From Actinomycetota bacterium (GTDB taxonomy: Bacteria > Actinomycetota > Aquicultoria > Aquicultorales > Aquicultoraceae): a stretch of 37,113 bases of DNA. Under the pieces are notes generated by a model that was not told where the DNA came from, did not search any database, and saw only the letters and a list, made by a program, of their open reading frames with translations. Location: contig JACUUO010000012.1 in assembly GCA_014859275.1 (NCBI GenBank), positions 1 through 37,113 on the forward strand, written 5' to 3'. The position numbers and the translations under genes are program-made. Shown piece after piece: positions 11,191-13,222 of the stretch. Position 1 is the stretch's first letter. Each line of letters begins with the position of its first letter.

Positions 11191-13016
11191 TATTCTGTGG
11201 GTCTGGTCCCGGCCCAGGACGAACGCTGGCGGCATGCACTTGCCCCGACAAGTCGAGCGAGCTGTCCCTGGTTACCTGGAGGGTCACTGTTCCCTTATAG
11301 AATTACATGGCGAACTCGGGTTCCGCGTGGATGCGAGAATCCCGAAAGGATTTTCGCTGAAGTCACGGACAGGGTTCATCGTTTATGAGACTGCGGGTCA
11401 GTCACTCCAGGTAAACTAAGGCGGCTAAGCGGCGAACGGCGGAGTAACGCGTAGGTAACCTGCCTCAAAGACCGGAATACCCTCTCCCGAGAGGCCGCGA
11501 GGTCACTTGGGAGGGGCTAATGCCGGATAAGCTCACGCTCCATTGATGGGGCGTGAGAAAAAGGTAGCCCTTAATCGAGGCTTCCGCTTTGAGATGGGCC
11601 TGCGTCCTATCAGGTAGTTGGTAGGGTAACGGCCTACCAAGGCGACGACGGGTAGCTGGTCTGAGAGGATGGTCAGCCCGACCGGAACTGAGACAAGGTC
11701 CGGGCCCGGAAGGGCTAGCGGGGTGGAATCTGTCGCAATGCGCGCAAGCGTGACGATGCAATGCCGTGTGGAGGAAGAAGGCGGGTGAAAACACCCGTTG
11801 TAAACTCCCGTCGGACGGGGAGTAAGCCCAGGGGGTGAAAAGCCCCGGCTGGGTGAAATTACCCGTCATCGAAAGCGCCGACGAACTACGTGCCAGCAGT
11901 CGCGGTGATACGTGGGGCGCGAGCGTTGTCCGGAATTACTGGGCGTAAAAGGTTACGTAGGCGGCCGGATGTATCGGCTGTGAAAGCCTCTCGGTAAACG
12001 GGAGGAGGTCGGCCGAGATTATCCGGCTAGAGCGCAGGGGAAGGAAGTGGAACTCCCGGAGGAGCGGTAGAATGCGGTGATACCGGGAAGAACCCCAAAG
12101 GCGAAGGCAGCTTCCTATACTGTTGCTGACGCTGAGGTACGAAAGCCAGGGGAGAGAAGCGGTGTGGCACCCGCGTATTCCTGGCCGTAAAAGTTGGGCA
12201 CTAGCCCTGAGCCCTCACGAAGGTTCGGGGCGCAGCTAACGCATTAAGTGCCCCGCCTGGGGAGTACGGCCGCAAGGCTGAAAACCAAGGGACTTGTGGA
12301 AATCTGCACAATCGGCGGCGAGTGTGGTTTAATGCGAGTTCGAGCGCAGAACCTCACCAAGGCTGCCTGCAGGAGTAAGCCAGTGGAAACGCTGGCCCTC
12401 CTCCAGGGGACGTTCCTTGCAAATTACAAATACTCGCGAGAATTTGTAATTTGCAATGAACGTCCCCAGACTGGACCCCTGTGGGTAGGCGTGTATGGTC
12501 ACCGTTAGCCCGTGCCGTGAGGTGTGCGGTTAGCTCCGCGTAACGGGCGCAACCCCTTACCCCATGTTGCCATCGAACAGCGCCGGGCACTCATGGGGAA
12601 CAGCCCGCGAACGAAGTGGGAGGAAGGTGGGGACGACGGCGGATCGGTATGCGCCGGATGCCTTGGGCTACACACACGCGACAGTGGCCGGTACAAAGGG
12701 GGCCGAACCCGCGAGGGAGAGGAAATCCCAAAAAGCCGGTCGTGGTTCGGATCGCAGTCTGCAACCCGACTGCGTGAAGCTGAAGCCGATAGTAATCGCG
12801 GATCAGCATGCCGCGGTGAATACGTTCTCAGGTTTCCTTCATATAGCTGGCCGCGTCCGCCAAAGGCGGATCGGCTGAAGCCGTCAACCCAACCCTGCCC
12901 CAGCGGGCGGAAACGTCTACTAGGGCGGGGAGGGAAGATGATTAGGTCGGTCCAACTAGGCGGTCGTTGGCAGGGCATACCGCCCGTACCGAGAGGTGTG
13001 GGCTTACTTAAGAACT
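11191..13016 (+). rRNA. Highly divergent 16S-type rRNA (functional centres altered, anti-SD absent)
   Basis: The 16S framework is recognisable from GGACGAACGCTGGCGGC at the 5' end, through TACTGGGCGTAAA and GGGGAGTACGGCCGCAAGG, to GCGGTGAATACGTTCTC. Position numbers below are E. coli numbering from memory. Helices are kept, often by paired changes. A19-U916 and U20-A915 of the central pseudoknot are both C-G. G506-C525 of the 530 pseudoknot is A-U. C783-G799 and A784-U798 are swapped to other pairs. The 790 loop, the 907-930 region, the decoding strand and the 3' end differ from sites that are nearly invariant in bacteria. The first variable region is long and a 62-base palindrome fills the V6 area, so the gene is about 1.8 kb. 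The 3' end is approximate because no CCTCC is present. Confidence 0.85.
12406..12467. repeat. 62-bp palindrome (REP-like) inserted in the 16S V6 region
   Basis: The arms begin GGGGACGTTCCTTGCAAATT and are complementary across the centre TCGCGA except at two positions. The same element, perfectly palindromic, lies in the 23S at 15927-15988. It would extend as a long hairpin on the host helix. The GGGGACGTTCC ends resemble palindromes associated with REP-type transposases in other genomes (from memory); no such transposase is in this window. Confidence 0.75.
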
Positions 13017-13222
13017 TGCTAAAAGTTCGAGGATTCCGGTTATGGGTGTTCCGGCTCCGGGTTCCCCTGAGGGCAACCCTCAGGAACACCCGACCGGACT
13101 ACTGCAAGGTATGCGCCTTGCAGTCAGCATTCAGCTATCAGCAGTTTCTTAAAAAGCTGACGGCTGAAAGCTGATAGCTGAATGCTCTTTAACAACAAAA
13201 TAGCGTGCATCGAGTAGCCGAC
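13017..13222 (+). other. 16S-23S spacer without tRNA genes, with strong hairpins
   Basis: No tRNA-Ile or tRNA-Ala is present. Hairpins are CCTGAGGG/CCCTCAGG (about 13067-13084), CTGCAAGG/CCTTGCAG (about 13102-13123) and a 16-bp perfect stem made by 13127-13142 and 13170-13185. The last uses an AGCTATCAGC-type dispersed repeat. AATAGCGTGCA (13199-13209) pairs perfectly over 11 bases with 16781-16791 beyond the 23S, forming the pre-23S processing stem. Confidence 0.75.

Follow-up and report, generated by a model that had tools for sequence, protein, structure and literature searches.

A strongly diverged second rRNA operon without anti-Shine-Dalgarno sequence and without key decoding and catalytic nucleotides, conserved in one bacterial order

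How can a cell whose genes carry Shine-Dalgarno (SD) sites possess a 16S rRNA gene without the anti-Shine-Dalgarno (aSD) sequence? The question is raised by a stretch of 37,113 nucleotides (the window), which is contig C225 of the genome of an uncultured actinobacterium of the Aquicultoraceae (G000; 2.83 Mb, 98.2% complete). The original prediction stated that the 16S 3' end in the window lacks the aSD while local genes use SD sites; the sequence is as quoted there, the observation is confirmed, and the case turns out to have been understated. The GGAGG-type sites named upstream of the genes at 7957, 18653 (minus strand), 22022, 26172, 31596 and 34267 are all present. An SD-like core lies in the 20 nt upstream of 12 out of 24 chosen open reading frames with mechanically assigned starts, compared to 16% of random 20-mers.

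The 16S gene matches the full Rfam model RF00177 (model positions 1-1533) over 11191-13017 with 1011 bits, compared to ~1580 bits for canonical relatives. It has the overall fold and full-length match of the RF00177 family and, in four genera, lacks the CCUCC aSD tail. The features relevant to its 3' end are:

11191..13003, + strand: diverged 16S-like rRNA gene (divergent SSU), from Rfam RF00177 and functional-site alignment, with the 3' end at ~13003
12982..13003, + strand: helix 45, GCCCGTACC-GAGA-GGTGTGGGC, the last conserved segment ahead of the missing aSD, identical in four genera
13012..13028, + strand: hairpin after helix 45, from folds of four copies, similar in position and different in stem sequence in each genus
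13035..13098, + strand: conserved spacer hairpin with core TTCCGGCTCCGGGTTCCCC, from sequence comparison and folds

Helix 45 is followed in the window by TTACTTAAGAACTTGC. The + strand has no CCTCC between 12960 and 13222, and the only copies within 11191-13217, at 12397 and 12400, are both intragenic. The 22-nt helix 45 end GCCCGUACCGAGAGGUGUGGGC is the same in all four family copies (G000, G001, G005 and G009) and is followed by unrelated sequence without aSD. The missing aSD is due neither to chance nor to assembly error, because the independent assemblies of the three other genera share the 22-nt helix 45 and also lack the aSD. On the 3' side of the genus-specific hairpin, each copy contains a strongly conserved hairpin around UUCCGGCUCCGGGUUCCCC (13049 onward), and the exact 17-mer at 13049-13065 is found, within the order, only at divergent operons. 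This conserved hairpin could extend the divergent 16S rRNA at its 3' end as a structured element, or it could belong to the spacer.

The conclusion drawn earlier, that the cell must hold another 16S rRNA, proved to be right, given a canonical 16S fragment in the same genome and canonical rRNA in relatives. Used as a DNA query, the canonical 16S of a relative (G007) recovered a canonical 16S 5' end in G000 (C151, 11018-11380), with an intact 27F site and 94-95% identity to the canonical 16S 5' ends of family members G002, G003 and G006; the contig stops within the gene. A complete canonical 16S of the family lies on a 175-kb contig of G007 (C44) and has the 3' end GGATCACCTCC. The canonical 16S of G000 would likewise carry the aSD, which is deduced from the relative because the 3' end is missing from the G000 assembly. 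A match to GGATCACCTCC elsewhere in G000 (C76) was set aside, a single match being about what is expected by chance. Canonical 23S sequence is binned with the divergent operon in G005 and G001, and together with the fragment in G000 it documents the coexistence of a divergent and a canonical operon in one genome. The RF00177 search alone, in which only the best candidates were scored, missed split 16S copies that the DNA queries recovered. Among the canonical genes, the 23S on contig C44 of G007 contains long insertions within H69 (near E. coli position 1917) and near 1951, which are probably introns. A 3-kb contig of G001 (C21) carries a 23S only ~77% identical to the family canonical 23S and is probably a bin contaminant.

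Missed in the original prediction was that the loss covers most decoding and catalytic sites, in the 16S and 23S alike. The segments concerned in the 16S, and the 23S gene, are:

12838..12858, + strand: segment in place of the universal TTGTACACACCGCCCGTC (E. coli ~1390-1407), from the canonical/divergent alignment, with the universal motif at chance distance
12959..12982, + strand: segment in place of AAGUCGUAACAAGGUA, including the equivalents of E. coli A1492/A1493, from alignment, functional sites and motif scoring
13222..16768, + strand: diverged 23S-like rRNA gene (divergent LSU), Rfam RF02541, 2102 bits

Alignment with E. coli and canonical relatives finds neither UACACACCGCCCGUC nor GUCGUAACAAGG in the divergent 16S; the gene falls short of a functional SSU RNA as judged by these motifs and A1492/A1493. 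None of the family copies read there retains A1492, C1400, U1498, A1499, A1500 or G1505, and A1493 is replaced in three out of four, with the exact alignment being uncertain at 16S positions 1492-1503. The divergent 23S is altered in the P-loop, A2451, the A-loop, H69 and the sarcin-ricin loop, and it falls short of a functional LSU RNA as judged by P-loop G2251/G2252, A2451 and the sarcin-ricin GAGA; all four copies differ at G2251, A2439, A2451, C2452, A2503, U2504, G2583 and G2661 and three at G2252, while G2553 and the H69 loop differ among copies. Nucleotides kept in the copies read are G530, C1402, A1339, U2506, A2450 and C2501, and the L11/GTPase-centre region is largely kept. Alignment-free scoring of 14 universal motifs agrees: most are no closer in the divergent copies than in shuffled sequence, compared to 0-1 mismatch in uninterrupted canonical copies, the main exception being the 515F/530-loop motif (1-2 mismatches where covered), along with one peptidyl-transferase motif (2 mismatches). 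Among the nucleotides lost here are ones that known ribosomes need. Helix 44 forms one long helix in the minimum-energy folds of all four family copies. An alternative reading of its top, GGCCGC/GCGGUC compensated in G005, was dropped; the minimum-energy fold uses the CCGCC/GGCGG register (CCACC/GGUGG in G009). The original statement that a ribosome using this 16S would read other mRNAs or none can be refined towards "none", which is favoured because the changes also reach the decoding adenines, P-loop, A2451 and sarcin-ricin loop.

The fold is nevertheless under selection. At four-fold degenerate sites of the flanking genes, G000 is 30-35% identical to the other three genomes, i.e., saturated, while among the four family copies the divergent 16S genes are 78-87% identical and the 23S genes 78-85%. 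With base pairs predicted from canonical sequences by thermodynamic consensus rather than taken from a curated structure, 84-86% of the canonical 16S pairs are able to form in the divergent 16S, compared to 38-42% when the partners are slid, and 28 pairs are changed on both sides with pairing kept within the family, against 1.5 expected by chance. For the 23S, 85-87% of pairs form and 51 are compensated within the family (chance 2.9, with a maximum of 7 over 200 shuffles). The structure is locally relaxed, since 76 varying pairs in the 16S and 143 in the 23S are broken in at least one copy. The operon shows neither the neutral divergence nor the lack of pairing conservation of an rRNA pseudogene. 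Sequence comparison thus indicates purifying selection rather than a plain pseudogene, because the flanking neutral sites are saturated, yet the rRNA is 78-87% identical and compensated pairs are far above chance.

Further parts of the operon are:

10893..10920, + strand: promoter-like TTGACA-16-TAAAAT, a candidate from a consensus scan (11 of 12 matches), ~270 nt upstream of the 16S
13183..13195, + strand: TGCTCTTTAACAA in the spacer, which from its resemblance to E. coli boxA we take to be a boxA-like antitermination motif
13199..13218, + strand: 5' arm of the 23S processing stem, pairing with 16772-16791
16772..16791, + strand: 3' arm of the 23S processing stem, pairing with 13199-13218
16799..16914, + strand: canonical-like 5S rRNA (Rfam RF00001; blastn 84-89% to canonical family 5S)
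16914..16952, + strand: perfect 19-bp inverted repeat ending in T5, a probable terminator (inverted-repeat search)
12406..12467, no strand assigned: palindromic dispersed repeat inserted in the 16S (repeat search)
15927..15988, no strand assigned: second copy of the palindrome, at the L1-stalk position of the 23S (repeat search)

The promoter-like site, the boxA-like motif and the terminator suggest that the divergent operon is transcribed. All four copies (G000, G001, G005 and G009) retain the 23S processing stem; a leader-spacer processing stem for the 16S is not above shuffles in G000 and only somewhat so in G001 and G009. A 5S gene was found at the G000 copy and not at the divergent operons of G001, G005 and G009. 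The L1 stalk is present in G001 and lacking in G005 and G009, while in G000 the palindrome takes its place. This palindrome of 62 nt, perfect or near-perfect (GGGGACGTTCCTTGCAAATTACAAATACTCG...), occurs in both the 16S and the 23S, and related copies are dispersed across G000 and its relatives, which identifies it as a small mobile-like repeat. Repeat families of the TCTAGAGACTAGATACTAG type enlarge variable helices of the divergent 23S (13345-13500, 14047-14200 and 14823-14959), and similar arrays are found in G009.

The survey of relatives covered 12 genomes of the order and 36 of the class. Sharing the diverged 16S are G001, G005 and G009, which represent three other genera of the family, and, as far as its copy can be read, G011 from another family of the order; the divergent 16S query gave no match outside the order in all 36 class genomes. 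Two of four pattern matches in genome contigs (L083 and L084) were rejected as chance matches, and no viral contig with the pattern was found. The locus is anchored by the following genes:

8644..9693, + strand: LPG_synthase_TM gene (Pfam), left neighbour, syntenic with G005, G009 and, without rRNA, G006
17451..18017, + strand: DUF5714 gene (Pfam), right neighbour, syntenic in G001, G005 and G009
23277..25301, + strand: ligA (Pfam), housekeeping anchor present in all 12 order genomes

The order LPG_synthase_TM, rRNA operon, DUF5714 and, farther on, ligA is found in G000, G001, G005 and G009 to the extent that the contigs cover it, and the operon has been inherited vertically at one chromosomal place within the family. 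In G006 (genus g4) the flanking genes are 2.4 kb apart with no rRNA between them, and the operon is therefore dispensable there or lost. The five divergent 16S sequences form one clade with support of 100/100 and a long stem. The operon predates the divergence of the two families, because the clade branches in host order with G011 outside; its deeper position in the tree is unsafe due to long branches. The divergent 16S of G011 (C53, 1-2643) breaks off in helix 44 and joins an oppositely oriented 23S fragment, which is either a real rearrangement or an assembly artefact at a contig end. A stray 124-nt piece elsewhere in G011 (C5, 18524-18647) is 90% identical to the divergent 16S.

We consider it likely that the window contains an ancient second rRNA operon whose fold is selected and whose RNA would be folded, processed and probably protein-bound, would neither decode nor start at SD sites, and would serve as a sink, decoy or scaffold. 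The window operon would be an ancient paralogue predating the split of the two families, with ordinary translation left to a canonical operon with aSD. RNase III would process its RNA and ribosomal proteins would bind it, giving a ribosome-like particle able neither to start on SD sites nor to decode. Such particles would most likely act through binding or scaffolding and not through peptide synthesis; the ligands of a sink or decoy could be ribosomal proteins, ribosome-targeting factors, toxins or antibiotics, and a scaffold is the other option. We lean, with less assurance, towards the broader proposition that one bacterial order has turned an entire rRNA operon into a conserved non-translating ribosome-like particle, a "dead" ribosome that selection maintains for a binding or scaffold role. 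No second gene was found for uS12, the only ribosomal protein family tested, which speaks against the preferred explanation; G000 has one strong and two weak matches to PF00398 (the KsgA family).

Several observations count against this explanation and fit partial decay: the L1-stalk losses, the absence of 5S in three of four copies, the rearranged-looking G011 copy and the missing operon in G006. A decaying pseudo-operon, i.e., a duplicate that lost its function before the family split and has eroded slowly since, would account for these together with the lost catalytic sites and the repeat insertions. We regard it as quite unlikely, as pure decay is disfavoured by rRNA identity of 78-87% between genomes whose neutral sites are saturated, and the reading is largely refuted by compensatory changes far above chance and by the kept processing stem. 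Purifying selection on both subunits would also suit a specialised ribosome that, thanks to compensating changes elsewhere, translates a small set of mRNAs, such as leaderless ones, independently of SD pairing; the kept G530, C1402, A1339, U2506, A2450 and C2501, the largely kept L11/GTPase-centre region and the specialised ribosomes made by divergent Vibrio rRNA (PMC10697612) point the same way. However, such a ribosome would need to function without nucleotides required by known ribosomes, with A1492, A1493, G2251, A2451 and G2661 replaced, G2553 and the H69 loop variable, the L1 stalk lost in three of four copies and uS12 in single copy, and we consider it unlikely.

Two further readings were considered. 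Contamination, or misbinned organelle or symbiont rRNA, is suggested by the state of the genomes, which are drafts split into many contigs and include at least two metagenome assemblies, and by the frequent misbinning of rRNA contigs. It is highly improbable given that the same contig carries family-syntenic genes including ligA, gatA and gatB (G000 and G001), that the flanks are syntenic in G009, and that no functional lineage with such a 16S is known. That the divergent rRNA is the sole rRNA of a cell that abandoned SD initiation would fit the single 16S that RF00177 finds in G000, but the idea is hardly credible: the canonical 16S fragment in G000 refutes it for the family, and canonical 23S in the G005 and G001 bins and the GGAGG sites upstream of genes argue in the same direction.

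The preferred reading, a selected operon of non-translating rRNA, matters because universality is ascribed to A1492, A1493, A2451 and the guanines of the P-loop. If it is true, the ribosome fold can outlive catalysis, and the operon provides a natural experiment that separates the parts of rRNA serving assembly from those serving translation. The 27F, 341F, 787, 907, 1391 and 1492 primer sites are altered in the divergent 16S; such genes are therefore hard to detect by amplicon survey, and comparable operons in other organisms may be going unnoticed.

A selected rRNA operon without catalytic sites is absent from the Vibrio, Scytonema and non-anti-SD precedents in the open-access literature; an earlier report outside it is possible. 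The divergent rrnI operon of Vibrio vulnificus forms specialised, translating I-ribosomes (PMC10697612). The genome studied here similarly has one differing rRNA operon, presumably for special use, but unlike that of the I-ribosomes it has lost the decoding and peptidyl-transferase nucleotides and diverges by ~30% from the family canonical rRNA. Scytonema hyalinum also has a second 16S type with secondary structure kept, whose divergence of 7.3-9.0%, at that time called the highest in any prokaryote (PMC5658200), contrasts with the ~30% found here. Non-anti-SD genomes, as described by Lim, Furuta and Kobayashi 2012 (PMC3522020), have no 16S with the motif and have always lost SD sites too; the window 16S resembles theirs in lacking CCTCC, whereas the genome studied here retains SD sites and has a canonical 16S besides. 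OLE RNA, a large conserved structured bacterial non-coding RNA of ~600 nt with evidence for bound ribosomal protein bS21 (PMC12054373), is comparable as a large conserved structured RNA in a ribonucleoprotein, protein binding of the window operon being presumed; unlike OLE RNA, which has no rRNA origin, the RNA described here would come from a 16S-23S operon of more than 5 kb.
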